A stretch of 64,000 bases of DNA from contig NZ_CP156081.1 in the NCBI RefSeq assembly GCF_039830135.1, positions 3,768,001-3,832,000 of the forward strand. Reading direction: 5' to 3'. This document shows, one piece after another, positions 19,630 to 39,476 of the stretch; the first letter of the stretch is position 1, and each line of letters begins with the position of its first letter. The position numbers and the translations under genes are program-made. The notes under the pieces were generated by a model that saw only the letters and a program-made list of their open reading frames with translations, was not told the DNA's origin and did not search any database. This DNA comes from Defluviimonas sp. SAOS-178_SWC (lineage in GTDB: Bacteria; Pseudomonadota; Alphaproteobacteria; Rhodobacterales; Rhodobacteraceae).

Positions 19630-19768
19630 TGTCGGTCCCTCTCTTGCCCGCGCCCGGCCGGAGGGTGGCAGGACGCTTTGGCCCTTGAATAGCGAAAATC
19701 CCGCCCATGTCACGCCGCGATTGGCTCAAAGACGACGATTCCGGGATCGTTAGCGGTAAAAATTACTT

Positions 19769-19780
19769 TTGTGATCACGA
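19769..19780. promoter_or_regulatory. TTGTGATCACGA operator upstream of sdhC (proximal)
   Basis: A 12-bp palindrome, 11 of 12 positions identical to TTGTGATCACAA, in an AT-rich stretch between the DUF1194 gene end and sdhC. It matches the motif found upstream of sucC and of the GntR gene at 37915-38565. Its centre is 21 bp from the neighbouring site at 19790-19801. Confidence 0.7.
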
Positions 19781-19789
19781 GGAAAATTT

Positions 19790-19801
19790 TTGTGATCGCA
19801 A
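19790..19801. promoter_or_regulatory. TTGTGATCGCAA operator upstream of sdhC (distal)
   Basis: Second copy of the palindrome, with one mismatch (G for A at position 9). The centre-to-centre distance of 21 bp puts both sites on the same helix face, two turns apart, as expected for cooperative dimers. The likely binder is the FCD-type GntR regulator encoded at 37915-38565. Confidence 0.65.
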
Positions 19802-19816
19802 ATATGAGAGGCGCCG

Positions 19817-20509
19817 TCACCTTTCGTAACGCACGGGAATCGCCTTCCCCGGAAGGGTCGAAATCTGCCGTTCGGTCTCGCGCCGGAGCTTGCGGCGCAT
19901 CCGTTCGGGGTATTCGTCGTAATCCTCGGCGGTGACCACGAAGGCATTCCCGCCGGTGACGACGTTCTCGGCGAAATACTGCGGCAGGCCGGCGTCGTCG
20001 CCCCGGATCACCAGCGCATTGACGGTGATGGCGAAGCTGTCCATCTCGGCCCTCAGGCCAGCCGGCTCGGACCCTTCGTTGTTGCGTCCGTCGGAGGAGA
20101 TATCCATCACCCGGCGCTTGCAGGCGGGCGCCGCGTCGAACACGCCGAGGCCGAAGGTCATCGCCTGGCCGATGGCGGTGGAATACTCGATCCAGACCCG
20201 CGGCAAGGTCTCGATCCGCCCGGCGAATTCCTCCAGCTCGGCGGCGCTGCCGATCCGGGTCCAGGGCACCGACAGATCCTGCCGCGACGATCCGGTCCAT
20301 TGCATCAGCGCCAGCGCCGCTTCGCCGCGCACCAGCGCCTCGGCCACGACGCCATCGCGCAGGCCCTCGGCGAGGCCCCGCATCTGCACCTCGTATTCGC
20401 GCCGGTCCACGGACCCCGACACATCCACGGCAAACAGAAGCGCAAGCTCGCAACCTGCCGCCGGGGCGGCGAGCGTTGCCAACAGAAGCGATGCGGCGAT
20501 CCCACGCAT
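19817..20509 (-). CDS. DUF1194 (VWA-like) secreted protein
   Basis: A 230-aa protein with a signal peptide (residues 1-18) and a von Willebrand A-type fold. The MIDAS-like motif DVSGSVD is at about residue 28, with MQWTGSS, AIGQAMTFG and MDISSDGRNNEG as further metal-site segments. These match DUF1194, a periplasmic family of unknown role common in Rhodobacterales. A 7-bp hairpin (20513-20532) lies directly upstream of the ATG. The sdh promoter sites lie in the gap after its stop. Confidence 0.88.
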   Translation of the reverse strand: MRGIAASLLLATLAAPAAGCELALLFAVDVSGSVDRREYEVQMRGLAEGLRDGVVAEALVRGEAALALMQWTGSSRQDLSVPWTRIGSAAELEEFAGRIETLPRVWIEYSTAIGQAMTFGLGVFDAAPACKRRVMDISSDGRNNEGSEPAGLRAEMDSFAITVNALVIRGDDAGLPQYFAENVVTGGNAFVVTAEDYDEYPERMRRKLRRETERQISTLPGKAIPVRYER

Positions 20510-20766
20510 GGACCGAAGGTTAGCGCCTTCGGCCTCGCCGCGCGATCACAAAGGCATCAGCCGCGAAACCGTTTCATGCCCGGTTGCGCATTCGTCCCGG
20601 ACGGCAAAGACGAGACGCCCGGATCTCGCGGGTTCACCCTCAAGGCGAAATGCCTTCTGGTCCTTCAGCTTTTACCTGTGGCCGCGACGCCCTCCACCGA
20701 CTATTCAAGACCTGTCGGGTTCGACGCGGGTTCGTCATCCCGCGTGAGGCCGACGGAGAACGGAGG

Positions 20767-21345
20767 ATGAAAACGGTGAACCCCGAAGACATGACCTTTA
20801 GTTTCGAGGATTGGGAAAGGACCATCGGTTTTCTCGAAGGCGGGCGTGATCCGGACCTGTGGCACCAGCTCGTGGACGGGATGAACTACGACGACCCAAG
20901 GGCGCTCGACTATGTGCTGTGGATCGTGCGCCAGCCGGACTGCGATATCGCGACCGCCGCGCTGACCTTCGTCTCGCTCCGCTGCGCGGACCATGTCTGC
21001 GCTGCCCCCCGGCTGCACAGCGGCGCGGACGACCGGGTATCGCGCATCGCGTCCGAAATCTGCGCCCGATCCGAGGCGTCGGGCTACACCCGCGCGAAGA
21101 TCGGCTGGCACGCGCCGGACCATATTCCGACGCCCGCCGCAGTGCTCGCGGACATCCGGGCGAACTGTGCCAAACTCGGCCTGGCGGCGGGACGGACCCA
21201 TCTGCCGATACCCGCGGCGGTTCTTGGCGCCGATTTCGACAAGCCGCCCGCGGCCGCGAGTTATTTCGTCGACGAAGGCGGCTTCACCCATATGAGCGCG
21301 ATGGACCCGTTCATGCAGGCAATCATGGGATTCAGGTCGAACTGA
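20767..21345 (+). CDS. DUF4274-like protein
   Basis: A 192-aa soluble protein. The region around residues 25-65 (LWHQLVDGMNYDDPRALDYVLW, then PDCDIATAALTF) resembles DUF4274, a domain of unknown function. The C-terminal part has IPAAVLGADFDKPPA and ends FMQAIMGFRSN; I do not recognise it. The ATG at 20767 directly follows GGAGG, which is too close. An ATG eight codons later (20791) could be the real start. It is an isolated gene, not clearly in an operon. Confidence 0.7.
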   Translation: MKTVNPEDMTFSFEDWERTIGFLEGGRDPDLWHQLVDGMNYDDPRALDYVLWIVRQPDCDIATAALTFVSLRCADHVCAAPRLHSGADDRVSRIASEICARSEASGYTRAKIGWHAPDHIPTPAAVLADIRANCAKLGLAAGRTHLPIPAAVLGADFDKPPAAASYFVDEGGFTHMSAMDPFMQAIMGFRSN

Positions 21346-21363
21346 CCGTGGCCGCACACCCCG

Positions 21364-22395
21364 TCACAAAGGCATCAGCGCCCAGTAGTCGAGGTCGAGC
21401 AGCACTTCGGGCAGGTATTTCCCATCCTGCCCTTTCAGCGCGAATTCGGGCGCGCCGTGCTTTACCGCCACCAGCCGCAACCGGATCGCGCCGACACCCG
21501 GCGCGGCCGTCCCGGCCTTGTCGAGCACCTCGGACCAGGCGCGCACCGTATCGCCCGAGAAGCAGGGATTCGCATGGGCGCCCGCGTTCAGCGCGACGAT
21601 CATCTGCGCGTTCGCGAGCCCGTTGAACGACAGCGCGCGGGCGAGGCTGATGACGTGCCCGCCATAGATCAGCCGCCGCCCGTCCTCGCGGTTGGTCGCG
21701 TCGAAATGGACCTTGGCGGTGTTCTGCCAGAGGCGCGTGGCGAGCATGTGCTCGGCCTCCTCGATCGTCACGCCATCGACGTGGTCGATCCTCTCGCCGA
21801 CCGCGTAGTCGCCCCAGCGGTGTGGCTCACCTGCCAGCGTGAAGTCGTAGCGGCTGAAATCCAGCCCCACCGGAAGGACGAGGGCGCCCGCCGGGACCGC
21901 CTTCTGAAGCTCGGGCACGACCGTCTCTGGCGCCGGCGCCGCAAGGTCGCGCTTTCGCACCATGACCCAGCGGACATATTCCAGCACCACCTCGTCGTCC
22001 TGGTTCAGTCCGCGCGTGCGTACATAGACCACGCCCGACTTGCCGTTCGAATTCTCCTTGAGCCCGATGACCTGACTTTCGGACCGCAGCGTATCCCCGG
22101 CCCAGACCGGCTTCAGCCAGCGCCCTTCGGCATAGCCGAGATTCGCGATGGCGTTCAGCGAGATATCGGGCACGGTCTTGCCGAAGACCGTGTGGAATGC
22201 GATCAGGTCATCCATCGGCGCGGCCTTGAGCCCGCAGGCCCGCGCGAATGCGTCCGAGGAATACAGGGCATGCCGCGCCGGGTAGAGCGCGTGGTAAAGC
22301 GCCCGCTCCCCCCCGGAAACGGTTCTCGGGACCGCATGCGCGATCACCTCGCCGAGCCTATAATCCTCGAAAAAGCGGCCCGGATTGGTCTTCAT
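21364..22395 (-). CDS. mch: Mesaconyl-CoA hydratase (beta-methylmalyl-CoA dehydratase)
   Basis: A 343-aa double hotdog MaoC-family protein; that length is what I recall for the Rhodobacter sphaeroides enzyme. It hydrates mesaconyl-C1-CoA to beta-methylmalyl-CoA in the ethylmalonyl-CoA pathway of acetyl-CoA assimilation. The start MKTNPGRFFEDYRLGEVI and segments such as YGGHVISLARALSFNGL are typical. I chose the ATG at 22395 because it overlaps the DUF1737 stop as TGATG and fits the known length. It is the last gene of a four-gene unit headed by the malyl-CoA thioesterase/lyase gene. Confidence 0.94.
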   Translation of the reverse strand: MKTNPGRFFEDYRLGEVIAHAVPRTVSGGERALYHALYPARHALYSSDAFARACGLKAAPMDDLIAFHTVFGKTVPDISLNAIANLGYAEGRWLKPVWAGDTLRSESQVIGLKENSNGKSGVVYVRTRGLNQDDEVVLEYVRWVMVRKRDLAAPAPETVVPELQKAVPAGALVLPVGLDFSRYDFTLAGEPHRWGDYAVGERIDHVDGVTIEEAEHMLATRLWQNTAKVHFDATNREDGRRLIYGGHVISLARALSFNGLANAQMIVALNAGAHANPCFSGDTVRAWSEVLDKAGTAAPGVGAIRLRLVAVKHGAPEFALKGQDGKYLPEVLLDLDYWALMPL

Positions 22396-22598
22396 CACAA
22401 TTCTCCCAGATTCGCGTCCGGGGAATAGGTGCCCGGTACGTCCTTCGCGACCGCCTGGCCGCAACGCATGACGCCTTTGCCGGCGTCGAACGCGTAGACC
22501 GGGCCGCCATGCAGTTCCCATCCCTGGTTCAGCGCGGCCGTCACCCTGTGACAGAAGGCCGACGTGTCGTCATCGCTGAGGAAGCGGTAGAGTTTCAT
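22395..22598 (-). CDS. DUF1737 domain protein
   Basis: A 67-aa protein with the DUF1737 pattern (KLYRFLSDDDTSAFCHRVTAALNQG followed by WELHGGP in the middle). The family consists of small soluble proteins of unknown function. It overlaps nnrU by 4 bp and mch by 1 bp, so it is translationally coupled to both. The positioning suggests co-regulation with ethylmalonyl-CoA pathway genes, not a proven role there. Confidence 0.85.
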   Translation of the reverse strand: MKLYRFLSDDDTSAFCHRVTAALNQGWELHGGPVYAFDAGKGVMRCGQAVAKDVPGTYSPDANLGEL

Positions 22599-23152
22599 CC
22601 GTAGGTTCCCAGGAACGGGTTGTGGCCCAGCCAGATATGGACGCCCGCAATCAGCCCGTAGACGACAAGCGCGATCGCCCCGCCGATGGCATCGCTGCGC
22701 AAACCACCCGGCGCGGGCCGCTTCCAGTCCTCCTGCGCATTGATGAGAAGGATCGAGACTACGGCCCAGGCACCGATCCCGCCAAAAAGCACGATGGAGG
22801 CCAGATCGCCGTTGACCAGCAGATGCGCGAACGCCCAGAGGAGGACGCCGAGGAGCATCGGATGACGCAGCCGCGTCTTCACGAGGCCCTTCGAATGCGG
22901 CACACCGAGCAGAAAGATCGCGATCAGCATCAAGAGGTCGGTGAGATGCCCCATACCCGGCAGCGGCGTGTAGACCGGCACGATCTCGGCGCGCCGGTAA
23001 CCGATCACCATCAGGATGATCGCGGCCAGTGAGAGGACCGTGACGACCATCTTTCCCGGCAGGTCGCCCAGCTTCGCCCGAAGTCCCGGCAATACTCTCT
23101 TGAACAAATGTGACGCGACCCAGAGGATCAGCCCAAGGACCAACACCTGCAT
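22595..23152 (-). CDS. NnrU family membrane protein
   Basis: A 185-aa integral membrane protein with about five transmembrane segments, starting MQVLVLGLILWVASHLFKRV. The FLLGVPHSKGLVKTRLRHPMLLG segment carries the NnrU signature. NnrU was first linked to nitric-oxide metabolism, but many copies sit away from denitrification genes, as here. It begins 40 bp after the malyl-CoA gene and overlaps the DUF1737 gene by 4 bp. Its biochemical role remains unclear. Confidence 0.88.
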   Translation of the reverse strand: MQVLVLGLILWVASHLFKRVLPGLRAKLGDLPGKMVVTVLSLAAIILMVIGYRRAEIVPVYTPLPGMGHLTDLLMLIAIFLLGVPHSKGLVKTRLRHPMLLGVLLWAFAHLLVNGDLASIVLFGGIGAWAVVSILLINAQEDWKRPAPGGLRSDAIGGAIALVVYGLIAGVHIWLGHNPFLGTYG

Positions 23153-23192
23153 TTCGAACCTCCCGAACCGTTGAAGACGCGCCAGACTTTCC

Positions 23193-24071
23193 TTATTTCG
23201 CGCGCTCCGCAATAGCCTCCGCGCGGGAAAGGATCTGCCGCGCGGTGACGACATGGAGGTTCTCGACGATCTTTCCGTCGACGACGGCGACGCCCTGCCC
23301 GGCCTGCTCGGCCTCCTCGAAGGCGGCGATCTGGCGGCGGGAGAGGTCGATTTCGGCTTCCGACGGCGCAAAGGCCTCGTTCGCGATTTGAAGCTGGGCG
23401 GGGTGGATCAGGGTCTTGCCGTCAAAGCCCATGTCGCGGCCCTGCGCGCATTCGGAGCGGAGCCCGTCCTCGTCCCTGAAGGCGTTGTAGACACCGTCGA
23501 CGATGGTCCGGCCGAACGCCTTGGCCGCCAGCAGGCAAAGGCCAAGCCCGGCCTGCATCGGCAAGCGATCGGGCCGGAACCGGCTGCCGAGTTCCTTGGC
23601 AAGGTCGTTGGTCCCCATGACCATGCCGCCCAGCCGGGGATGCGCCGCAATCGCGGCGGCGTTCAGCATCCCCGCCGCCGTCTCCATCATCGCCCAGAGC
23701 GGAACGCCGGGGATCAGGGCCGCCACCGAATCGAGATCGGCCGGAGAGGACACCTTGGGGATCAGGATCGCATCGACGTTCGCCCCGGCGCCGATCGCCG
23801 CGGCAATGGCCAGCACGTCCTCCCGCCCCCATGCGGTGTCGAGCCCGTTGACCCGCACGATCCGGGCGCGGTCGCCGAAATCGGCCTCGGCGAGCACCCT
23901 GGCCAGAAGGGCGCGGGCGGCCACCTTCTCCTCCGCCGCCACGGCATCCTCTAGGTCGAAGATGATCGCGTCGCAGTCGAGGCCTTGCGCCTTTTCCAAC
24001 GCCCGCTCCTTCGAGGCGGGGATATAGAGCACCGAACGATACGGGCGCGGACGGTCGTCAATAGCGGGCAT
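23193..24071 (-). CDS. mcl2: HpcH/CitE-family (3S)-malyl-CoA thioesterase or lyase
   Basis: A 292-aa CitE-like TIM-barrel protein beginning PRPYRSVLYIPASKERALEK, with metal/CoA-binding segments DAIIFDLEDAV, IRVNGLDT-like IVRVNGLDTAWG, IPKV and the conserved glutamate in AMMETAAG. It resembles Mcl2, the malyl-CoA thioesterase of Rhodobacter, more than the longer Mcl1 lyase. Mcl2 hydrolyses malyl-CoA to malate in the ethylmalonyl-CoA pathway. The ATG at 24071 has GAGGGG 6 bp upstream; the ATG two codons earlier is overlapped by that ribosome-binding site. It heads the mch operon. Confidence 0.82.
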   Translation of the reverse strand: MPAIDDRPRPYRSVLYIPASKERALEKAQGLDCDAIIFDLEDAVAAEEKVAARALLARVLAEADFGDRARIVRVNGLDTAWGREDVLAIAAAIGAGANVDAILIPKVSSPADLDSVAALIPGVPLWAMMETAAGMLNAAAIAAHPRLGGMVMGTNDLAKELGSRFRPDRLPMQAGLGLCLLAAKAFGRTIVDGVYNAFRDEDGLRSECAQGRDMGFDGKTLIHPAQLQIANEAFAPSEAEIDLSRRQIAAFEEAEQAGQGVAVVDGKIVENLHVVTARQILSRAEAIAERAK

Positions 24072-24291
24072 GGGCATCCCCTCGCAATATTGTTGCGCCA
24101 AGAACCACATTCCCGGCACATTCGGCAAGCCCGAAATTGCCGCATTGCAGAAAAATCGAGAGCCAAACCCTATTTCTCTGGCCGGAAAGCACCCGCCAAC
24201 GGCGCGCAAGATGGCCCGCACTCCTGCTTAACAGGTTTTTGCCGTTCCCGGCGCAGCGTTGCGCCATCGCGAGCTTTGAAGGGGTCAGACC

Positions 24292-24447
24292 ATGAAACAT
24301 AAGCTTTTCGCCTTGTCGCTCGGCTTCGGCGGCGTCATCTTCGCCACGCACCACGCGTTTGCCGAGACGCAGGCGCGATGCGCGACGGGTGAGACGGTGG
24401 TCGATCAGTTTGCGGACCAGCGTCCGGCTGGAGGCAACGGTGCTTGA
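24292..24447 (+). CDS. 51-aa secreted peptide, possibly the truncated remainder of a longer protein
   Basis: A short reading frame with a good ribosome-binding site (GAAGGGG), a clear signal peptide (MKHKLFALSLGFGGVIFATHHAFAE is cut after AFA) and only about 27 mature residues including one cysteine. The start resembles small periplasmic proteins of about 90-100 aa in Rhodobacteraceae that continue with a WTITVT-like core; that part is missing here. The frame ends 43 bp before the TSUP gene on the opposite strand. It may be a 3'-truncated gene or a real short peptide. Confidence 0.5.
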   Translation: MKHKLFALSLGFGGVIFATHHAFAETQARCATGETVVDQFADQRPAGGNGA

Positions 24448-24489
24448 AAGAAGTCGCCGGAATCTCGCAGGGCGGTTCTTTCCGGGGCG

Positions 24490-26509
<2,020 letters not shown>

Positions 26510-26518
26510 CCTTTCTCC

Positions 26519-26540
26519 GGGGGCGCCGCACGGCGCCCCC
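26519..26540 (+). terminator. GC-rich hairpin after mdh
   Basis: A 10-bp perfect inverted repeat (GGGGGCGCCG / CGGCGCCCCC with a CA centre) starts 10 bp after the mdh stop. No T-tract follows, so it may act as a weak or Rho-assisted terminator or protect the mRNA end. It separates mdh from the sucC promoter region. Confidence 0.55.
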
Positions 26541-26614
26541 GACTCACGCTCCGACGCCTTTCGCGGCGGCGCGAATCTCCCTTCCCCAACAAATTTCTCC
26601 CAAGCGCTTCCGGT

Positions 26615-26626
26615 TTGTGATCACAC
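26615..26626. promoter_or_regulatory. TTGTGATCACAC operator upstream of sucC (distal)
   Basis: A 12-bp palindrome matching TTGTGATCACAA at 11 of 12 positions, 135 bp upstream of the sucC ATG. It is paired with the site at 26636-26647 at a centre distance of 21 bp, the same spacing as upstream of sdhC. It is the likely target of the GntR/FCD regulator at 37915-38565. Confidence 0.72.
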
Positions 26627-26635
26627 CATTTCTTG

Positions 26636-26647
26636 CTGTGATCACAA
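26636..26647. promoter_or_regulatory. CTGTGATCACAA operator upstream of sucC (proximal)
   Basis: Second palindrome of the pair, 11 of 12 matches to TTGTGATCACAA, followed by the AT-rich run ATTTGCGGTTTT. The pair lies in a 246-bp non-coding gap between mdh and sucC that otherwise contains only the mdh hairpin. Confidence 0.72.
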
Positions 26648-26755
26648 ATTTGCGGTTTTCGGCCGATCCGGCCGATTTCCCGCATTTATCATTTCTCCGC
26701 CCGCGCCGCTTGTGCCATCACGTGCTCCAAACCGAACGGATACGGGGACATCGCG

Positions 26756-27949
26756 ATGAACATCCACGAATACCAGGCCAAGGCATTGCTGCGCAGCTAC
26801 GGCGCTCCGGTTTCCGACGGCCGCCCGGTCCTGCGGGCGGAAGAGGCCAAGACGGCGGCAGGCGAACTCGACGGCCCGCTCTGGGTCGTCAAGGCGCAGA
26901 TCCATGCCGGCGGCCGCGGCAAGGGCCACTTCAAGGAAGCCGAGGCCGGTGAAAAGGGCGGCGTCCGCCTCGCCAAGTCGGTCGAGGAGGCCGCAGCGCT
27001 CGCCAAGCAGATGCTCGGCCGCACGCTCGTGACGCACCAGACCGGCCCCGCCGGCAAGCAAGTCAACCGCATCTATATCGAGGACGGCTCCGACATCGCG
27101 CGCGAGCTTTACCTCGCCGTTCTCGTCGATCGCGGGACCAGCCGCATCTCCTTCGTCTGCTCGACCGAGGGCGGCATGGATATCGAGGACGTCGCGGCAA
27201 AGACGCCCGAGAAGATCCTGTCCTTCTCCGTCGACCCGGCCTCTGGCCTGTCGGACTTCCACGGCCGCCGCGTCGCCTTCGCGCTCGGGCTGGAGGGCGC
27301 CCAGGTCAAGCAGTGCGTGGGCCTGATCAAGACGCTCTACAAGCTCTTCGTCGAGAAGGACATGGAGATGCTTGAGATCAACCCGCTGATCGTCGGCACC
27401 GACGGCAACCTCAAATGCCTCGACGCCAAGATGGGCTTCGACGGCAACGCGATCTACCGCCACCCCGACATCGCCGCCCTTCGCGACGAGACCGAGGAGG
27501 ACCCGAAGGAACTCGCCGCGTCGAAGTTCGACCTCAACTACATCGCGCTCGACGGCGAGATCGGCTGCATGGTGAACGGCGCCGGTCTTGCGATGGCGAC
27601 GATGGACATCATCAAGCTTTACGGCGCGGAGCCCGCCAACTTCCTCGACGTGGGCGGCGGCGCCACCAAGGAGAAGGTGACCGAGGCCTTCAAGATCATC
27701 ACCTCCGACCCGAACGTGAAGGGCATCCTCGTCAACATCTTCGGCGGCATCATGCGCTGCGACGTCATCGCCGAGGGCGTGATCGCGGCGGTGAAGGAAG
27801 TGGGCCTTCAGGTGCCGCTGGTCGTCCGGCTTGAGGGGACCAACGTCGAGAAGGGCAAGGAGATCATCGAGAATTCCGGCCTGAACGTGATCGCGGGGGA
27901 CAATCTTTCCGACGCCGCACAGAAAATCGTCAAAGCGGTGAAAGGGTAA
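26756..27949 (+). CDS. sucC: Succinyl-CoA synthetase (ADP-forming) beta subunit
   Basis: A 397-aa ATP-grasp subunit that, with SucD, interconverts succinyl-CoA and succinate with nucleotide phosphorylation. It starts [20 protein letters not shown]. Conserved stretches include [49 protein letters not shown] and [10 protein letters not shown]. Its TAA stop overlaps the ATG of an atypical low-GC gene (TAATG), so sucD is not the next gene. Length is normal. Confidence 0.98.
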
Positions 27950-28455
27950 TGGGGTTCCAAGACCTCCCCGGACGTTTCGACGGTCTGTCGGAAGAGGGTG
28001 CTGCAAGAGCAGCGCACCAAGCTGCATATCGAGAAGCGATTGCCCTAATGGCGTTCAGTTCAGCAGAGTACTTTCCGAACGAAGAGATCATCACCGAAGC
28101 ACAACGCCAATTCATCGACCACGTGTTCGCTTTTACGATCAACGCTCGGCGAGCTATTGAAATCAAAGTCGTCAAGGGGATTCAGATCAACGTCGGGCGC
28201 TGGCGCCTCACTGAACAACTCGACGACTTCAATCCAACTACTGACCTGTGGGAAGTAATTAACAAGATCGTACATGCCAGGCATCTGAAGATCTTTGTTA
28301 ATCAACGGAAATCCCAAGTTATGCAGGTTGGGCATGAGTGGCGCTTAACATTTCTTGAAGTTCAATCTGACCGCGGCGAAAAGATCCACGTCGATCCATT
28401 CGGAATGGCGTTTTCTTATGTCGACGCAATGTCAGTGCACTTCCCGGCTCAATAG
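27949..28455 (+). CDS. AT-richer orphan gene of unknown function between sucC and sucD
   Basis: A 168-aa predicted soluble protein. I recognise no domain. It is rich in charged and aromatic residues (AAYREAIALMAFSSAEYF, then VFAFTINARRAIEIKVVKG), with a C-terminal beta-rich part (WRLTFLEVQSD). No signal peptide or membrane segment. Its base composition is visibly closer to 50% GC than the flanking suc genes, with codons such as ATT, AAT, TTT and TTA that they avoid, suggesting transfer. The ATG overlaps the sucC stop by 1 bp and sucD starts 9 bp after its stop, so it is precisely inserted into the operon and likely co-translated. Confidence 0.75.
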   Translation: MGFQDLPGRFDGLSEEGAARAAHQAAYREAIALMAFSSAEYFPNEEIITEAQRQFIDHVFAFTINARRAIEIKVVKGIQINVGRWRLTEQLDDFNPTTDLWEVINKIVHARHLKIFVNQRKSQVMQVGHEWRLTFLEVQSDRGEKIHVDPFGMAFSYVDAMSVHFPAQ

Positions 28456-28464
28456 GGGATAGAT

Positions 28465-29346
28465 ATGTCCGTACTGGTCAACAAGAACACCAAAGTCATC
28501 TGCCAGGGCCTCACCGGCAGCCAAGGCACCTTCCACACCGAACAGGCGATCGCCTACGGCACCAAGATGGTCGGCGGCGTGACGCCGGGCAAAGGCGGCC
28601 AGACCCATATCGGGCTGCCGGTCTTCAATTCGGTGCATGAAGCCAAGCGCGCCACGGAAGCGAATGCGTCGGTGATCTACGTGCCCCCTCCCTTCGCGGC
28701 CGACTCGATCCTCGAGGCGATCGACGCCGAAATGGAGCTGATCGTCTGCATCACCGAGGGCATCCCGGTCCTCGACATGATGAAGGTGAAGCGCGCCATC
28801 GAAGGCTCCAAGAGCCGCCTCGTCGGCCCGAACTGCCCCGGTGTCATCACCCCCGGCGAATGCAAGATCGGCATCATGCCCGGCCATATCCACGCGAAGG
28901 GCTCCTGCGGCGTCGTCTCGCGCTCGGGCACGCTGACCTATGAGGCGGTGAAGCAGACGACCGACCTCGGCCTCGGCCAGTCCTCGGCCGTCGGCATCGG
29001 CGGCGACCCGATCAAGGGGACCGAGCATATCGACGTCCTGAACATGTTCCTCGACGATCCCGAGACCCAGTCGATCATCATGATCGGCGAGATCGGCGGC
29101 AGCGCCGAGGAAGAGGCGGCGGAGTTCCTCAGCCAGCAGAAGAAGAAGGGCCGATGGAAGCCGGTCGCCGGGTTCATCGCCGGCCGCACCGCGCCGAAGG
29201 GCCGCCGCATGGGCCATGCCGGCGCCATCGTGGCGGGCGGCAAGGGCGACGCGGAATCGAAGATCGAGGCGATGAAGAGCGCCGGGATCGTCGTCGCCGA
29301 CAGCCCGGCCACGCTCGGCGAAGCGGTGTTGAAGGCGATCGGCTGA
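28465..29346 (+). CDS. sucD: Succinyl-CoA synthetase (ADP-forming) alpha subunit
   Basis: A 293-aa subunit carrying the phosphohistidine. It begins [21 protein letters not shown] (CoA-binding Rossmann region) and contains [31 protein letters not shown] and the phosphorylation-site motif [12 protein letters not shown]. Together with SucC it makes the heterotetramer. GGGGATAGAT precedes the ATG. It is separated from sucC by the orphan gene at 27949. A perfect 14-bp inverted repeat follows its stop. Confidence 0.98.
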
Positions 29347-29351
29347 TCGAC

Positions 29352-29380
29352 GTTTCGCCCCGGACGGTCCGGGGCGAAAC
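29352..29380 (+). terminator. Perfect 14-bp inverted repeat after sucD
   Basis: Arms GTTTCGCCCCGGAC and GTCCGGGGCGAAAC around a single G, starting 6 bp after the sucD stop and ending 16 bp before the next ATG. It lacks a T-tract but would form a very stable hairpin. It could be a partial terminator or an mRNA-stability element that sets sucCD levels relative to sucAB. Confidence 0.55.
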
Positions 29381-29395
29381 CCGGGGAGGGTAGGA

Positions 29396-30112: not shown

Positions 30113-30201
30113 CGCCTCCCCTTCACCCGGCTGCACGAGACCCGCGCGGCCATATCCATGATGACAGGAGCGGCCGGGTCTGAGCCCCGCCGAGAGAGAT
30201 C

Positions 30202-33168
30202 ATGACCGAACAGAAACCCAACGACCAGTTCCACGCCTCCTCCTTCCTGCAAGGCGCGAATGCCGAATATGTCGAACAGCTCTACGCGCGGTTCGCCAAT
30301 GACCCGGCGGCCGTGGATGCAAGCTGGGCCGCGTTCTTCCATTCGCTCGGCGACACCGAGACCGATGTCCGCCGCGAGGCGCAGGGCGCGTCCTGGGAGC
30401 GGGCCGACTGGCCGCCGGTTCCGGCCGACGACCTGACCGCCGCGCTGACCGGCGAATGGCCGATCGCGGCGAAGGAGATGAAGGGCGCCGGCGACAAGAT
30501 CAAGGCGAAGGCCGCCGAGGCGGGCGTCGCCGTCACCGAAGACCAGATCAAGCGGGCGGTCCTCGATTCGATCCGCGCCCTGATGATCATCCGCGCCTAC
30601 CGGATCCGCGGCCACCTCGTCGCCGATCTCGATCCGCTCGGCATGAGAAGCGAGAAGCCGCATCCCGAGCTCGACCCGCGCTCCTACGGCTTTTCCGAGG
30701 CCGACATGGACCGGCCGATCTTCATCGACAAGGTTCTCGGCCTCGATTTCGCGTCGATGCGGCAGATCCTCGACATCGTGAAGCGCACCTATTGCGGGAC
30801 TTTCGCGCTCCAATACATGCACATCTCCGATCCCGAGCAGGCCGGCTGGCTGAAGGAACGGATCGAGGGCTACGGCAAGGAAATCGCCTTCACCCGCGAG
30901 GGCCGGAAGGCGATCCTGAACAAGCTCGTCGAGGCCGAGGGCTTCGAGAAGTTCCTGCACGTCAAGTATATGGGCACCAAGCGCTTCGGCCTCGATGGCG
31001 GCGAGGCGCTGATCCCGGCGATGGAACAGATCGTCAAGCGCGGCGGCAATCTCGGCGTGGAGGAGATCGTCGTCGGCATGCCGCATCGCGGCCGCCTCAG
31101 TGTGCTCGCCAACGTGATGGCCAAGCCCTACCGGGCGATCTTCAACGAATTCCAGGGCGGCAGCTTCAAGCCCGAGGATGTCGACGGTTCCGGCGACGTG
31201 AAGTACCACCTCGGCGCCTCGTCCGACCGGACCTTCGACGGCAACACCGTGCACCTGTCGCTGACCGCGAACCCCTCGCACCTCGAGGCGGTGAACCCGG
31301 TCGTTCTCGGCAAGGTCCGCGCCAAGCAGGCGCAGCTGAACGACAGCGACCGCACCAAGGTGCTGCCGATCCTCTTGCACGGCGACGCGGCCTTCGCGGG
31401 GCAAGGCGTGGTGGCCGAATGCTTCGGCCTCTCCGGCCTCGTCGGTCACCGTACCGGCGGCACGATGCATATCGTCGTCAACAACCAGATCGGCTTCACC
31501 ACCGCGCCGCACTTCTCGCGCTCCTCGCCCTACCCGACCGACCTCGCGCTGATGGTCGAGGCGCCGATCTTCCACGTCAACGGCGACGACCCGGAGGCCG
31601 TCGTCCACGCCGCCAAGGTCGCGACCGAGTTCCGCCAGAAGTTCCACAAGGACGTGGTCATCGACATGTTCTGCTACCGCCGCTTCGGTCACAACGAAGG
31701 CGACGAGCCGATGTTCACCAATCCGCAGATGTACAAGGCCATCAAGACCCACAAGACCACGCTCCAGCTCTATACCGAGCGTCTGGTCAAGGACGGCCTG
31801 ATCCCGGAAGGCGAGATCGAGGACATGAAGGCCGCCTTCCAGGCGCATCTGAACGAGGAATTCGAGACCGGCAAGAACTACAAGCCGAACAAGGCCGACT
31901 GGCTCGACGGCCGCTGGTCGCATATGAGCCGGGAAGACGGCGAATACTCGCCCGGCAAGACCGCGATCAGCAAGAAGACGATGACCGAGATCGGCACCGC
32001 GCTGACCCGCGCGCCGGACGGCTTCGACCTCCACAAGACCGTCGCCCGCCAGCTCGAGGCGAAGTCCCAGATGTTCAAGTCCGGTCACGGCTTCGACTGG
32101 GCCACGGCCGAAGCGATTGCCTTCGGAAGCCTCGTGACCGAGGGCTATCCGGTCCGCCTCGCCGGCCAGGACTGCACCCGCGGCACCTTCTCGCAGCGCC
32201 ACTCGGCCTTCATCGACCAGACGACGGAAGAACGCTATTACCCGCTCAACCACGTCAAGGCCGGCCAGGCGCGCTACGAGGTCATCGACTCGATGCTCTC
32301 CGAATACGCGGTCCTCGGCTTCGAATACGGCTACTCGCTGGCCGAGCCGAACGCGCTCGTGATGTGGGAAGCCCAGTTCGGCGACTTCGCCAACGGCGCC
32401 CAGATCATGTTCGACCAGTTCATCTCGTCGGGCGAATCGAAGTGGCTCAGGATGTCCGGCCTCGTCTGCCTTCTGCCGCACGGGTTCGAGGGTCAGGGGC
32501 CCGAACACTCCTCCGGCCGGCTCGAGCGTTTCCTCCAGCAATGCGCGCAGGACAACTGGATCGTCGCCAACTGCTCGACCCCGGCGAACTACTTCCACAT
32601 CCTGCGCCGCCAGGTGCACCGGCCGTTCCGCAAGCCCCTGATCCTGATGACGCCGAAATCGCTGCTGCGCCATCCGCTCTGCGTCTCTGACGCCGAGGAT
32701 TTCACCACCGGGTCCGGCTTCCACCGTGTTCTCTGGGACGACGCGCAGAAGGGGCATTCCGAGACGAAGCTCGTCGCCGACAAGAAGATCAAGCGCGTTG
32801 TGATGTGCTCCGGCAAGGTCTATTTCGACCTTCTGGCCGAACGCGACAAGCGCGGCATCGACGACATCTACCTGCTCCGGCTCGAACAGTTCTACCCCTT
32901 CCCCGCCCAAGCGATGGTGAAGGAGCTTGAGCGCTTCAAGGGCGCCGAGATGATCTGGTGCCAGGAAGAGCCGAAGAACCAGGGCGCCTGGACTTTTGTC
33001 GAGCCCAACCTCGAATGGGTGCTCGGCCGGATCGGCGCCAAATCGGCGCGCCCCCGCTATGTCGGCCGCACCGCCTCCGCCTCGCCCGCGACCGGCCTCG
33101 CCTCGCGCCACAAGGCCGAGCAGGAGGCGCTGGTGAACGAAGCCCTTACCCTGGGAGAGAAAGCCTGA
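30202..33168 (+). CDS. sucA: 2-oxoglutarate dehydrogenase E1 component
   Basis: A 988-aa thiamine-diphosphate enzyme that decarboxylates 2-oxoglutarate. It starts with the E2-binding segment ([18 protein letters not shown]) and has the segments [14 protein letters not shown] and [14 protein letters not shown] with the ThDP/Mg region, VNNQIGFTT, and the C-terminal [20 protein letters not shown] precedes the ATG. Its stop overlaps the sucB start (TGATG). A long open frame on the opposite strand across this gene is a composition artefact. Confidence 0.98.
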
Positions 33169-34706
33169 TGACAACCGAGGTCCGCGTCCCCACGCTCGGC
33201 GAAAGCGTGACCGAGGCGACCGTCGCCACCTGGTTCAAGAAACCGGGCGAGATGGTCGCGGTCGACGAGATGCTGTGCGAACTGGAAACCGACAAGGTGA
33301 CGGTGGAGGTGCCCGCGCCCGCCGCCGGCCGCCTTGCCGAGATCGTCGCGAAGGAAGGCGAAACGGTGGGCGTGAACGCGCTTCTCGCCCAGATCGCCGA
33401 GGCCGGCGATGCCGGCCCCGAAGAGATTACCCCCAAGAAAAGCGCCGCAGCCGCCGCGCCGAAAGCCGAAGAGGGCAAGATGTCTGGCAAGAACACCGAT
33501 GTAATGGTTCCCACCCTCGGCGAAAGCGTGACCGAGGCGACCGTCTCCACCTGGTTCAAGAAGGTCGGCGATGCCGTCGCCGTCGACGAGATGCTGTGCG
33601 AGCTTGAGACCGACAAGGTTTCGGTGGAGGTTCCCTCGCCCGTCGCCGGTGTGCTGGCAGAGATCGTCGCCCCCGAAGGCACGACCGTCGATGCCAAGGC
33701 CCGGCTCGCGGTCGTGGGCGAAGGCGCCGCCGGCGCCGCCCCGGCCCCGGCCAAGGCGGAACCGGCCCCGGCCGCTACGCCCGCCGCCAGCGGCAAGGAC
33801 GTCGAGGACGCGCCCTCGGCGAAGAAGGCGATGGCCGAGGCCGGCCTGACCGCCGCTCAGGTCACCGGCACCGGCAAGGATGGCCGCATCATGAAGGAAG
33901 ACGTGGCCAAGGCCGCTGCCGGCGCCGTCCAGGCCGCGCCCGCTGTCGCCTCCGCCGCGCCCGCCCCGGCCGCCGCGCCGCGCGCCCCGGTCCCGGCCGA
34001 GGATGCCGCCCGAGAGGAGCGCGTGAAGATGACGCGCCTCCGCGCTACCATCGCCCGCCGCCTCAAGGACGCGCAGAACACCGCCGCGATGCTCACGACC
34101 TACAACGAGGTCGACATGTCGGGCATCATGGCGCTCCGGAACGAATACAAGGACCAGTTCGAGAAGAAGCACGGGGTGAAGCTCGGCTTCATGTCCTTCT
34201 TCGTGAAGGCCTGCTGCCACGCGCTGAAGGAGGTGCCCGAGGTCAATGCCGAGATCGACGGCGGCGACGTGGTCTACAAGAACTTCGTCCATATGGGCGT
34301 CGCTGTCGGCACGCCGACCGGCCTCGTCGTCCCGGTCGTCCGCGATGCCGACCAGATGGGCTTCGCCGCGATCGAGAAAAAGATCGCCGAGCTTGGCGTC
34401 CGCGCCCGCGACGGCAAGCTCTCCATGGCCGAGATGCAGGGCGGCAGCTTCACCATCTCGAACGGCGGCGTCTACGGCTCCCTGATGTCCTCGCCGATCC
34501 TGAACCCGCCGCAATCGGGCATCCTCGGCATGCACAAGATCCAGGACCGCCCGGTCGTGGTGAACGGCCAGATCGTGATCCGCCCGATGATGTACCTGGC
34601 GCTGAGCTACGACCACCGCATCGTCGACGGCAAGGGTGCTGTGACCTTCCTCGTCCGGGTGAAAGAGGCGCTGGAAGACCCGCGCAGGCTCCTGATGGAT
34701 TTGTGA
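33168..34706 (+). CDS. sucB: 2-oxoglutarate dehydrogenase E2 (dihydrolipoamide succinyltransferase) with two lipoyl domains
   Basis: A 512-aa E2 with an unusual duplication. Lipoyl domain 1 covers residues 1-78 (lipoyl-lysine K43 in ETDKVTVEV) and lipoyl domain 2 about residues 108-185 (K150 in ETDKVSVEV). An Ala/Pro linker, the peripheral-subunit-binding domain (about 210-245, [14 protein letters not shown]) and the catalytic domain with [11 protein letters not shown] follow. Most characterised SucB proteins have one lipoyl domain and about 400 residues. The two domains are nearly identical over long DNA stretches, consistent with tandem duplication. Start overlaps the sucA stop by 1 bp. Confidence 0.96.
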
Positions 34707-34722
34707 TCCCCGAACAAGCAGC

Positions 34723-34756
34723 TCTGGGACGGGACGCGCCAAGCGCCCCTTCCCAG
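34723..34756 (+). terminator. Hairpin after sucB
   Basis: Outer arms TCTGGGA / TCCCAGA enclose an inner GCGC-CAA-GCGC stem, starting 17 bp after the sucB stop. There is no T-tract. It may attenuate transcription into the downstream sulfotransferase-like gene. Confidence 0.45.
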
Positions 34757-34912
34757 ACCAGTTGGACAAATTTGCCGAGCCGAGACAGGCACAAAAGCAA
34801 AACCGGAATGGCAGACGCCCTTTCTTGCCGCCACCCTTGATGCCGGGCAGATAGCCCGGGCCGCGGCCAAGGGCGGGATCCGCGACCAAAGCCTCTCCCA
34901 CGGAGTGTCACA

Positions 34913-35779
34913 ATGCCTTCGCCTGTTCCCCGCCTCTTCGTCGAACCCGAGGTGCCACAGCCGAAGCGTCGGGCCTTGCAGGAACGCGTTGCGGAACGTC
35001 ACCGGCACATTTTCAGCCGCCCTGAGCAGGTCGCCCGCTATCTGGCATCGATTCACCTGCCCGCAAGCCTGACCTGGTCTTTCCTCAACAACGGGAAGGC
35101 GGGAACCTCCTCGGCGCGGCGCTTTCTCTTCGAACTGGAGTTTGGCGCCCCTCTGACGGTTCACTGGAACGTGCGTCATGACATCAACCCCGATAGCGTC
35201 GTCCATTACCTTCAGGGGGAAACGGGTGTGCTGCGCGCAGCGGTAGCCCTATCGACACCTTTCGCCACTCTCGACGCAGCCTTGCGCCTGACGACGGTTC
35301 GCCATCCGCTGACGCGCGCGGTTTCAGCCTTCGAATACTTGTGCAAGTCCAACGATCTGGCGCATGACTGGTTTGCGGCAGACCGGCTGCGCATGAATGC
35401 GTTGCTGGGCTTCAACTGGGAGTCCGACGCGCGCAGCGCGCGCGGCTTCTCGATGTTTCTCGACTATATCATGTGGACGGGAGAGAGCCTCGGCAACCTC
35501 GCGATCAACCCGCATTGGCGCCCCCAGATCGACAACATCCTCCCGGATCTCTACCGCCCGGATATCGTCGGCCGCCTCGAAGACATGCGAGCCTTCTATC
35601 GCGCCACGGCCGTGCAGCTCGACCGGCCCTTGCCCGCAGACTTCGACCTCCCCCACTCCAACCGACAGGAATATCTCGCCCGCACGGACTGGCTCTCTCC
35701 CGAGGCTCGCAGGAAGATCGGGAAGATTTATGCGCGAGACCTTGACTGGCTCGGCTATGGCCCGGAGGAGGCTGGCTGA
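34913..35779 (+). CDS. Second sulfotransferase-like protein (between sucB and lpd)
   Basis: A 288-aa protein with a degenerate phosphosulfate loop (FLNNGKAGTSSARRF, about residues 56-70) and a clear 3'-phosphate-binding motif (TTVRHPLTRAVSAFEY, about 125-140), so probably a sulfotransferase-fold enzyme. The C-terminal SPEARRKIGKIYARDLDWLGYG resembles the FYAEDFARFGYG end of the protein at 29396. It lies 206 bp beyond sucB and 158 bp before the MAPEG gene. Base composition is a little less GC-rich than its neighbours. The acceptor is unknown. Confidence 0.75.
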   Translation: MPSPVPRLFVEPEVPQPKRRALQERVAERHRHIFSRPEQVARYLASIHLPASLTWSFLNNGKAGTSSARRFLFELEFGAPLTVHWNVRHDINPDSVVHYLQGETGVLRAAVALSTPFATLDAALRLTTVRHPLTRAVSAFEYLCKSNDLAHDWFAADRLRMNALLGFNWESDARSARGFSMFLDYIMWTGESLGNLAINPHWRPQIDNILPDLYRPDIVGRLEDMRAFYRATAVQLDRPLPADFDLPHSNRQEYLARTDWLSPEARRKIGKIYARDLDWLGYGPEEAG

Positions 35780-35937
35780 CATGCCCTTTGCACTTGTTTA
35801 TGACGTCAGCGGCAAGCGCAGGGCGGGACCTCCCCCCATCCCCTCCCTCGCATGGAGGGGGCACCGCCGCTATGGCCTTGACCTCCACGGCGCGGCGGCA
35901 CAGCCTTGGCCACGAAAGGCGCAGAAGGAAAACCGAC

Positions 35938-36333
35938 ATGTCCAGCGAACTGAACATCCTCGCACTCTACGGGCTCTTCACCTGCCTCATCCTGATCCTC
36001 AAGATGACCGGCGCGATGGGGCAGCTCGGCATGGGCTATCTTCTCTCCTCGCGCGACGAACACCGGACGCTGACCGGCATCACCGGCCGCCTCGACAGGG
36101 CGCTCACGAACTCGATCACCGCGATGGCGCTCTTCGCCCCGGCGATCCTGATCCTCGCGCTCAAGGAGGGCTTCGGCGGCGCCACCCTCACCGCCGCGCA
36201 GGTCTTTGTCGTGGCGCGGGTGCTCTACGTGCCGGCCTACGGCCTCGGCCTCACCGGCATCCGCACACTTCTCTGGACCGCTGGTTTCGCCGCGACGGTC
36301 GTCCTCTATCTCATGGCGCTGATGGCCTCATGA
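35938..36333 (+). CDS. MAPEG family membrane protein
   Basis: A 131-aa integral membrane protein with four hydrophobic helices, starting MSSELNILALYGLFTCLILILK. The first loop carries RLDRALTNSITAMALFAPAIL, the arginine/asparagine pattern of the MAPEG (membrane-associated eicosanoid/glutathione metabolism) family. The start at 35938 follows AGAAGGAAAA; the upstream in-frame ATGs lie in non-coding DNA. Bacterial MAPEG proteins mostly have unknown substrates, possibly glutathione-linked. It sits between the sulfotransferase-like gene and lpd. Confidence 0.85.
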   Translation: MSSELNILALYGLFTCLILILKMTGAMGQLGMGYLLSSRDEHRTLTGITGRLDRALTNSITAMALFAPAILILALKEGFGGATLTAAQVFVVARVLYVPAYGLGLTGIRTLLWTAGFAATVVLYLMALMAS

Positions 36334-36366
36334 CCCCTTCTTCTGTTCCGAAATACTCTCGGGGCG

Positions 36367-36468
36367 CGCGGCCCACGGGGGCCGCGGCGGAGGGCAGACG
36401 GCCCCCCGGACCGCCCTCCGCATGTAGCTACGCCTGTAGTTACGGATGTATGACGGATGCGCTACGCC
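36367..36468 (+). repeat. Two GC hairpins followed by an 11-12 bp imperfect tandem repeat upstream of lpd
   Basis: Hairpin 1 at 36367-36386 (CGCGGCCC / GGGCCGCG) and hairpin 2 at 36388-36420 (CGGAGGGC / GCCCTCCG) are preceded by CCGAAATACTCTCGGGG, a short sequence I associate with repetitive extragenic elements in Rhodobacteraceae. They are followed by four degenerate copies of an 11-12 bp unit (TGTAGCTACGCC, TGTAGTTACGGA, TGTATGACGGA, TGCGCTACGCC) at 36423-36468. The element fills most of the MAPEG-lpd gap and could insulate lpd transcription. Confidence 0.55.
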
Positions 36469-36511
36469 ACCCCGACGCAAAACCGACGCCAGATTTCTGA
36501 AGGAGCATCCC

Positions 36512-37900
36512 ATGGCTGAGTTCGACGTGATCATCATCGGCGCCGGTCCCGGCGGATATGTCTCGGCGATCCGCTGCGCCCAGCTCGGGCTCAAGACCGC
36601 CGTAGTCGAGGGCCGCGAGACGCTCGGCGGCACCTGCCTCAACGTCGGCTGCATCCCTTCGAAAGCGCTTCTTCATGCCAGCCACATGCTGCACGAGGCC
36701 GAGCACAACTTCGCAAAGATGGGCCTGAAGGGCAGCGCCCCGTCCGTCGACTGGACGCAGATGCTCGCCTACAAGGACGATGTCATCGGCCAGAACACCA
36801 AGGGCATCGAATTTCTCTTCAAGAAGAACAAGATAACCTGGCTGAAAGGCTGGGGCACGATCCCGGAACCCGGCAAGATCAAGGTCGGGGACGAGGTTCA
36901 TTCGGCCAGGAACATCGTCATCGCCACCGGTTCCGAACCCTCGAGCCTGCCCGGCGTGACCGTGGACGAAAAAACCATCGTCACCTCGACCGGCGCGCTC
37001 GCGCTGCCGAAGGTGCCGAAGTCGATGGTGGTCATCGGCGCCGGCGTCATCGGACTCGAGATGGGGTCGGTCTATGCCCGGCTCGGGGCCGAGGTGACGG
37101 TCGTCGAATATCTCGACGCGATCACCCCCGGCATGGACGGCGACACCGCCAAGACCTTCCAGCGCATCCTCTCACGCCAGGGCCTCAAGTTCATCCTCGG
37201 CGCCGCCGTTCAGAGCGCCGAGGTCAAGCGCGGCAAGGCGACCGTCCGCTACAAACTGCGCAAGGACGACAGCGAGGGGAACCTCGACGCCGAGGTCGTC
37301 CTCGTCGCGACGGGGCGGAAACCCTATACCGAAGGTCTTGGGCTAGGGGCGCTCGGGGTCGAGATGGAGAGCCGTGGCCAGATCAAGACCGACGGCCATT
37401 TCGCCACGAATATCAAGGGGATCTACGCGATCGGCGACGCGATCACCGGCCCGATGCTCGCCCACAAGGCCGAAGACGAGGGCATGGCGCTGGCCGAGAT
37501 CCTCGCCGGCAAGGCCGGTCATGTGAACTACGGCGTGATCCCCGGCGTGATCTACACGACGCCCGAGGTCGCCAGCGTCGGCAAGACCGAGGAGCAGCTG
37601 AAGGAGGAGGGCCGCGCCTACAAGGTCGGTAAGTTCGCCTTCATGGGCAACGGCCGGGCCAAGGCGGTGTTCCAGGGCGAGGGCTTCGTGAAGCTTCTGG
37701 CCGACAAGGAGACCGACCGCGTCCTCGGCGCCCATATCATCGGGCCCGCGGCGGGCGAACTGATCCACGAGATCTGCGTCGGCATGGAGTTCGGCGCCTC
37801 CGCGGAGGACATCGCGCTCACCTGCCACGCCCACCCGACCTTCTCCGAGGCCGTGCGGGAAGCGGCGCTCGCCTGCGGCGACGGGCCGATCCACTCCTGA
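36512..37900 (+). CDS. lpd: Dihydrolipoyl dehydrogenase (E3)
   Basis: A 462-aa flavoprotein disulfide reductase with FAD fold [13 protein letters not shown], redox-active pair C44/C49-like [17 protein letters not shown] fold [15 protein letters not shown] and the C-terminal catalytic HAHPTFSEA motif. It reoxidises dihydrolipoamide of the 2-oxoglutarate dehydrogenase E2, and possibly of other lipoyl complexes. The ATG at 36512 follows GAAGGAGCATCCC. It is the last gene of the TCA cluster and converges on the GntR gene with only 14 bp between stops. Confidence 0.97.
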
Positions 37901-37914
37901 TCGCGCGGCGGTGG

Positions 37915-38565
37915 TCAGGCCGTCAGGTGCCGCAAACCTTGCGTGACGTCGGTGCGGACCGCCAGCCGCAGCGCCGGTTCATCGCCCGCCTTCAGCGCGG
38001 CGATGATCATGCGGTGATGCTGCGGCGGTTCTGACCGCGCAATCCGGGAATAGAGCGCGCGCATCGTCGGCCCGAGCTGCAACCACACCGTCTCGGCCAT
38101 CGCCAGCATCGCCGGTGCCTGGGCGCGCAGATAGAGCGTGCGGTGAAACTCCAGGTTGGTGCGGATATAGGCCACCGCGTCGCGCTTCACCGCCGCCTCG
38201 GCATTGGCCATGTTGATCGTCTGGAGACGTTCGATGAGCGCCAGATGCGCCCGCGGCAGCGCCCGGCTGGCAAGCTCCGTCTCGATCAGCGCCCGGAGCG
38301 TCGCCAGCTCCTCGATTCGCTCATGCGACAGATCCGGCGTCGCGACCCGCCCCGAGGCCGACAGCGTCAGCGCCCCTTCCGCGGCGAGCCGCCTCAGCGC
38401 CTCGCGCGCCGGCGTCATCGACACGCCATAGCTTTTCGCCAACCCCCGCAGCGTCAGCGCCTGGCCGGGCGCCAGTTCGCCATGCATGATCTGCTGGCGC
38501 AGCGACCGGTACAGCCGGTCGTGGGCGGATGCGCCGGTATCGGAAGGTCGCGTCTGGGTCAGCAT
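37915..38565 (-). CDS. GntR-family transcriptional regulator with FCD ligand domain
   Basis: A 216-aa regulator: winged-helix domain at about residues 13-80 (LRGLAKSYGVSMTPAREALRRLAAEG) and an FCD all-helical effector domain at about 85-210, with the metal-binding histidines in LEFHRTLY and HHRMIIAAL. FCD regulators usually sense carboxylic acids. A TTGTGATCACAA-type palindrome lies 7-18 bp upstream of its ATG, and paired copies lie upstream of sdhC and sucC. I infer an autoregulated TCA-cycle regulator. Its effector is unknown; succinate, citrate or 2-oxoglutarate are candidates. Confidence 0.88.
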   Translation of the reverse strand: MLTQTRPSDTGASAHDRLYRSLRQQIMHGELAPGQALTLRGLAKSYGVSMTPAREALRRLAAEGALTLSASGRVATPDLSHERIEELATLRALIETELASRALPRAHLALIERLQTINMANAEAAVKRDAVAYIRTNLEFHRTLYLRAQAPAMLAMAETVWLQLGPTMRALYSRIARSEPPQHHRMIIAALKAGDEPALRLAVRTDVTQGLRHLTA

Positions 38566-38571
38566 GTCGGG

Positions 38572-38583
38572 ATGTGATCACAA
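38572..38583. promoter_or_regulatory. ATGTGATCACAA operator upstream of the GntR gene
   Basis: A palindrome matching TTGTGATCACAA at 11 of 12 positions, 7 bp upstream of the regulator start codon, where bound protein would block transcription or translation initiation. Unlike at sdhC and sucC there is no second copy 21 bp away on either side. Confidence 0.7.
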
Positions 38584-38597
38584 GACCCAGGCCGCCG

Positions 38598-39317: not shown

Positions 39318-39476
39318 ACCCCCTCCTTCCGACGGCGCCAGAATACTCGGCCTGCCGGGCGCGAAAAGCCCGAAACGCACCCCCGCGCGAATTGCAGCCG
39401 AAAGCCTTTGACAGCCCCGCCCTCTTGTGGCAGTTGGCTGCGACTCTCGAATAGACGTGCACGGAAGGAGTGTTCC

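Follow-up and report, generated by a model that had tools for sequence, protein, structure and literature searches.

Paired palindromes before sdh and suc and a single copy at akgR as predicted AkgR operators in Defluviimonas

Introduction

The 64,000-nucleotide stretch of Defluviimonas sp. SAOS-178_SWC DNA analysed here (contig NZ_CP156081.1; hereafter the window) holds the sdh and suc genes of the tricarboxylic acid (TCA) cycle, a gene for a GntR-type regulator with an FCD domain, and five near-copies of the palindrome TTGTGATCACAA. This arrangement raises the question of which protein reads the sites and with what effect. Our analyses indicate that the sites are very probably operators of AkgR, the predicted product of the regulator gene, with the two paired sets expected to activate sdh and suc and the single site expected to repress akgR. 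The regulon itself is already known, the AkgR system having been described in Rhodobacter sphaeroides; the strict paired layout and the regulator's probable self-shutoff look like new details of that known system.

Results

Palindromic sites in the window and in the genome

The five near-copies start at positions 19769, 19790, 26615, 26636, and 38572, and each departs from TTGTGATCACAA by one base. A sequence-only reading of the window had reported the same 12-bp palindrome five times; all five coordinates proved right, but the copies are not identical, and because each is one base off and the exact 12-mer has no match anywhere in the 4.34-Mb genome, that wording is not literally true. Since the exact 12-mer is absent, its 10-mer (TGTGATCACA) and 8-mer (GTGATCAC) cores were searched instead. 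The inner 10-mer is exact in three of the five sites, namely the suc pair and the regulator site, which are also its only three exact copies genome-wide; the corresponding 10-mers of the sdh pair are TGTGATCACG and TGTGATCGCA. The 8-mer is exact in four of the five sites, the fifth reading GTGATCGC. With up to one mismatch, TGTGATCACA occurs at 31 places in the genome, versus 7 for the reversed pattern, and none of 100 dinucleotide shuffles of the window, searched with up to two mismatches, gave five matches (mean, 0.76; largest, 3).

According to the gene positions determined in the window, all five sites are intergenic, as had been claimed for the copies upstream of sdhC, upstream of sucC, and before the GntR/FCD gene. 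The sdh pair comprises a promoter-proximal predicted operator at 19769..19780, whose centre lies ∼95-96 bp upstream of the inferred sdh start, and a distal one at 19790..19801, 21 bp beyond it. The suc pair, with its predicted distal operator at 26615..26626 and its proximal one at 26636..26647, sits in the gap between mdh and sucC, and the absence of a site before mdh, noted earlier, was confirmed. The single predicted operator at akgR (38572..38583) lies between the inferred -35 element and the start codon, 6 nt before the ATG. Both pairs indeed measure 21 bp from centre to centre, and among the genomic matches to TGTGATCACA with at most one mismatch, 21-bp pairs occur only before sdhC and sucC; none of the other 26 near-matches in this genome has a second listed site within 50 bp. 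By a heuristic based on G+C content at third codon positions (GC3), 14 of these 26 fall in coding-like frames, and a second look added 3 of the remaining 12; with 9 of the 26 outside coding-like frames, we claim no additional targets in this genome beyond sdh, suc, and akgR.

Conservation of the pairs across the family

We examined 149 genomes drawn from the window's own family, Rhodobacteraceae. At least one exact GTGATCAC-N13-GTGATCAC arrangement, that is, a 21-bp pair, is present in 126 of them, and the reversed pattern in none; when the spacer was allowed to run from N2 to N32, pairs were found in 133. Summed over the 149 genomes, 218 pairs are spaced at 21 bp, and the remaining 30 spacings add up to 50. 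We retrieved the sequence around 89 pairs from the family, the window's two included; these were listed first or fetched by place and are not a random sample, and the count leaves out 16 loci from outside the family (L207-L214 and L218-L225). Eighty-two of the 89 have a spacing of 20-21 bp, and all 82 precede TCA genes (sdh, 36; sucC, 44; sucA, 1; fumC, 1), while the seven with spacings of 18, 24, 27, or 31 bp have none of these genes downstream in the fetched stretch. The distance from pair centre to start codon, extrapolated from tblastn matches, has a median of 124 (110-182) for sucC and of 147 (122-206) for sdhC. Thus, among the fetched own-family pairs, the sites are kept upstream of orthologous sdhC and sucC across genera, a point on which the sequence-only reading had staked its proposal.

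A few loci deserve separate mention. One genome carries a 21-bp pair 140 bp before fumC (L122; G042:C16, 1501-1529), and fumarase is likely in the regulon there. In another (L182; G136:C1), a sucA match of 47% identity takes the usual place of sucC, ∼166 bp downstream of a 21-bp pair. The same two genomes also hold 31-bp pairs, corresponding to approximately three helical turns, near genes that match no TCA query (L196, G042:C12; L197, G136:C8). In a genome of another family (L208; G295), the same core and spacing occur 166 bp ahead of a gene whose product shares 27% identity with the window's regulator; the palindrome may be common to FCD relatives.

Co-occurrence of the pairs and the regulator

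Orthologues of the regulator, called at E <= 1e-45, were found in 133 of the 149 family genomes. Regulator and pair, at any spacing, are both present in 130 genomes and both absent from 13, with three genomes holding the regulator only and three the pair only (Fisher p = 1.8e-13, genomes being treated as independent), so that the paired sites do track the GntR orthologue. Twelve of the 13 genomes that lack both hold a close sucC, the exception being G021, with no match better than 51%. In 11 genomes of this group, the best 20-22-bp pair within 400 bp upstream of sucC had 5-7 mismatches in 16 positions, and at least 32 of 100 shuffles did equally well or better. The region upstream of sucC in G017 (L232; G017:C38) holds a decayed pair with three mismatches and a 20-bp spacing that was matched by 0 of 100 shuffles, the regulator not being found in that genome; this pair is possibly a relic. 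Upstream of sdhA, the best pair in all 13 genomes had 4-6 mismatches; the least shuffle-like examples were those of G048 and G102 (7 and 8 of 100 shuffles, respectively), neither at the usual distance. In a class-wide draw of 289 genomes, the orthologue occurred in four, each belonging to the window's family, and in none of the other 285; some pair occurred in 22, 18 of these lying outside the family and mostly having scattered spacings.

Identity of the regulator

The protein encoded at 37915..38565 (minus strand; ATG at 38565; convergent with lpd) comprises a GntR domain (PF00392, 60.2 bits) and an FCD domain (PF07729, 58.1 bits). None of the 10 NCBIfam models listed for it scored above its own cut-off, and identities as PdhR (equivalog model, 23.9 bits against a cut-off of 330) and as LldR (21 bits against 311) were rejected. 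The window's genome encodes 15 further, weaker matches to this protein, the nearest paralogue being 39% identical.

A regulator 82% identical to that of the window is encoded ∼750 bp past sdhB in genome G051, which also carries exact 21-bp GTGATCAC pairs before both sucC and sdhC. G051 is a probable R. sphaeroides genome, an assignment that rests in part on a 165-aa malyl-CoA lyase fragment of PDB entry 4l9y, encoded there with 100% identity; we take the source organism of that entry to be R. sphaeroides. One small gene could be accommodated in the ∼750 bp past sdhB, which would agree with sdhB being RSP_0979 and the regulator RSP_0981, the numbers that we presume to denote R. sphaeroides sdhB and AkgR, respectively. 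Imam, Noguera, and Donohue are said to have reported in 2015 that AkgR directly activates TCA genes in R. sphaeroides, and AkgR is reportedly one of two regulators of central carbon metabolism in these bacteria. A published paper describes AkgR as a transcriptional activator. Further, excerpts of two papers give RSP_0981, a GntR transcription factor of R. sphaeroides, as the predicted regulator of sucCD, sdh, and 2-oxoglutarate dehydrogenase (PMC4344238), and AkgR sites as containing GTGATCAC (PMC6365646). The sites in the window precede sdhC and the sucC of a sucC-D-A-B-lpd run, matching the targets predicted for RSP_0981. By its identity and its linkage to the sdh/suc cluster, the window's regulator is a predicted orthologue of AkgR/RSP_0981; the sequence-only reading, which gave no name for a regulator with such a site, is superseded on this point, the regulator having a name.

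The sdh and akgR promoters

In the sdh region of the window, we placed a putative promoter at 19686..19713 on the minus strand, with a -35 element GTGACA (19708-19713), a 16-bp spacer, and a -10 element TATTCA (19686-19691). In 26 of the 36 sdh regions, GTGAC begins in an 8-nt stretch that extends from +57 to +64 relative to the proximal site's centre; for the best 5-mer in 30 shuffled sets of these regions, the corresponding count was at most 6. Alignment on GTGAC gave CGTGACA-N16-TA(t)naA, in which the -10 element has its T in 23 of the 26 regions and its A in 22. Transcription was taken to start ∼12 nt downstream of the -10 element's first base, which puts the sdh operators near -96 and -117. 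This suggests that the sdh pair sits at an activator-type position upstream of a conserved promoter.

For akgR, the inferred -35 element is TTGACG at 38596..38601 on the minus strand, overlapping the stop codon of the upstream YgjP-like metallopeptidase gene (38598-39578), which ends inside it. We compared the best 80 of 516 akgR relatives, which are therefore close kin, taking the most upstream in-frame ATG. Near the akgR start, TGTGATCACA occurs with at most one mismatch in 62 of the 80 relatives, 50 of these being exact, and with two mismatches in four more. An ATG and a TTGA[CT] could both be placed in 76 of the 80; the distance from TTGA[CT] to the ATG downstream is 34-36 nt in 68 of these 76, and in 55 of 60 relatives the operator begins 17-19 nt downstream of TTGA[CT]. 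Counted from the first base of the -35 element, a -10 element is expected to begin ∼23 nt further on, so the operator would cover the -10 region and transcription would begin at or beside the ATG, giving a leaderless and self-repressed promoter; no recognisable -10 sequence was derived for akgR. A permissive akgR-promoter pattern matched 127 of the 149 family genomes plus other places, often several per genome, and was not used for counts.

In G051, TTGA is kept 36 nt before the akgR ATG and a YgjP-like relative likewise lies directly upstream of the regulator gene; the best site there has five mismatches, and the operator was not found. Nor was an akgR operator found at the Defluviimonas denitrificans locus L012.

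Gene context of the sites

The sdh run reads on the minus strand from sdhC (19246..19629; Pfam Sdh_cyt on a longer open reading frame [ORF], 19246-19713, with the start at 19629 set from the sequence), through sdhD (18864..19235; Sdh_cyt) and sdhA (17049..18851; FAD_binding_2 and Succ_DH_flav_C), to sdhB (15527..16303; Fer2_3 and 4Fe-4S). On the plus strand, mdh (25547..26509; Ldh_1_N/C on a longer ORF, 25121-26509, with the start set by inspection) directly precedes sucC (26756..27949; ATP-grasp_2 and Ligase_CoA), which is followed by sucD (28465..29346; CoA_binding and Ligase_CoA) and by sucA for the 2-oxoglutarate dehydrogenase E1 component (30202..33168; E1_dh, Transket_pyr, and OxoGdeHyase_C). 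The ORF containing sucB, for the E2 acyltransferase (32958..34706, plus strand; 2-oxoacid_dh, Biotin_lipoyl, and E3_binding), probably has its true start further inside, after sucA. The dihydrolipoyl dehydrogenase gene, lpd (36446..37900, plus strand; Pyr_redox_2 and Pyr_redox_dim), closes the run. Between sdhC and mdh, the interval 19817-24221 holds minus-strand ORFs with DUF1194, mesaconyl-CoA hydratase-like, NnrU, and HpcH/HpaI (malyl-CoA lyase-like) domains.

Discussion

A predicted activator with feedback on its own gene

In the mechanism that we propose, each 21-bp pair, lying upstream of the sdh or the suc promoter, would take up two AkgR dimers on one helical face, and the AkgR so bound would activate sdh and suc, as the layout and the published activator role imply. 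A single dimer on the lone site, over the -10 region of the apparently leaderless akgR promoter, would repress akgR. The outcome would be negative feedback on AkgR and coordinated control of the TCA steps leading from 2-oxoglutarate to fumarate. As for sign, the layout points to activation at sdh, with less certainty at suc, and to repression of akgR itself. The proposal of the sequence-only reading, that an autoregulated GntR regulator of the FCD type co-controls sdh and the suc operon, is supported by the comparative evidence of co-occurrence and site conservation. We further think it rather probable that the following hold jointly: operator layout alone determines in which of two opposite modes AkgR acts, a tandem pair ∼96/117 bp upstream activating sdh (and suc by the same layout) and a single operator over the -10 region of the leaderless akgR promoter shutting akgR off; the feedback is common in Rhodobacteraceae relatives and was lost in R. 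sphaeroides; and loss of akgR makes the pairs vanish from both operons.

Several observations weigh against assigning the sites and their effects to AkgR in this way. When only exact 21-bp pairs are counted, 123 genomes have both regulator and pair, 10 the regulator only, three the pair only, and 13 neither. Exact pairs occur in G019, G096, and G114, where the orthologue was not found; these are drafts (91%, 77%, and 100% complete, in about 210, 50, and 320 contigs, respectively), so a missed orthologue gene is possible, if unproven. The three regulator-only genomes are G040, which has both pairs with one mismatch, and G122 and G147, with completeness values of 76% and 73%. Two 21-bp pairs from outside the family (L208 and L210) precede none of the TCA genes queried. 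At the promoters, 10 of the 36 sdh regions lack GTGAC at the common place, and the 44 sucC regions yielded no comparable consensus: [GCA]TTT occurs near +50 in 23 of them, with no convincing -35/-10 pair. At akgR, a site within two mismatches was not found in 14 of the 80 close relatives, and self-control is therefore not universal; moreover, the TGA of TTGAC doubles as the stop codon of the upstream YgjP-like gene, so the conservation of TTGAC is partly coding.

Other explanations of the sites

AkgR could instead repress sdh and suc, with the pairs serving as distant operators that loop the DNA or block a promoter that escaped notice. Repressors are common among FCD regulators, and the sucC promoter without a clear consensus, like the 10 sdh regions without the common GTGAC, would suit such an arrangement; however, the sdh pair does not cover the conserved promoter but lies ∼96/117 bp upstream of its inferred start, and AkgR is termed a transcriptional activator in the published paper. 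We therefore regard repression as unlikely. A CRP/FNR-type protein comes to mind because the sites resemble TGTGA and TCACA, the half-sites of CRP, which needs 6 bp between them. Here, the half-sites abut without a spacer, the TGTGA-N6-TCACA spacing is not found, and the sites co-occur with a GntR gene, making this explanation highly improbable. Five near-copies in one window might also reflect chance or a mobile repeat, but this is hardly credible at all given that 0 of 100 shuffles produced as many, that 21-bp pairs occur in 126 of 149 genomes with a spacer sequence free to vary, and that the pairs are conserved at the same genes across genera.

It is also conceivable that a different FCD/GntR paralogue, one of the 15 other matches in the genome, reads the sites, and that the adjacent gene is a bystander. 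The palindrome does appear common to distant FCD regulators, as a P. simiae regulator 32% identical to AkgR has a proposed GTGATCAC site in an excerpt of PMC6365646; besides, the best paralogue in the genome is 39% identical, and three genomes have pairs without an orthologue found. Nevertheless, the pairs and this particular orthologue are mostly present or absent together, and 62 of 80 close relatives carry a site at the start of this very gene, which leaves a paralogue a very unlikely reader and AkgR by far the best candidate.

Relation to known systems

To the AkgR system, the present analysis seems to add (i) a grammar of pairs two helical turns apart that goes with sdh, suc, and at times fumC or sucA, (ii) an activator-type placement at sdh, and (iii) a predicted self-repression seemingly missing in the model species. 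No report of the tandem spacing or of AkgR autoregulation was found in the literature searched, although the primary AkgR paper may contain such details. With a fixed operator grammar, the sequence by itself suffices to read the AkgR regulon, together with extra members like fumC in one genome. A further prediction is that R. sphaeroides is atypical, without feedback on akgR, which would alter the extrapolation of its dynamics to relatives.

The closest known system is the AkgR regulon of R. sphaeroides, which shares with the window an 82%-identical regulator (G051), the GTGATCAC core, the targets sdh and sucCD-sucAB-lpd, and the same two 21-bp pairs. The two differ in that the window's akgR adjoins lpd and has its own operator, whereas the G051 gene lies near sdhB and has nothing closer than five mismatches. 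PdhR and LldR, which are of the FadR type, are likewise GntR proteins, and PdhR has the GntR fold and regulates central carbon genes; the window's regulator, however, scores far below the NCBIfam cut-offs for both, and the PdhR/LldR operator differs from this palindrome. PS417_07240, the deoxyribonate regulator of Pseudomonas simiae, is 32% identical to AkgR and is proposed to bind the conserved palindrome GTGATCAC, but it serves deoxyribonate oxidation genes, and the excerpt describes a lone palindrome, at positions -47 to -40 relative to the start codon, and no pair (PMC6365646). Finally, the LacI-family protein CceR (RSP_1663) is, like AkgR, a predicted regulator of sdh, and also of mdh, in R. 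sphaeroides; it belongs to another family, and the motif given for it in the excerpt, [A/G/T]GTT-N6-8-AAC[A/C/T], is not the palindrome described here (PMC4344238).

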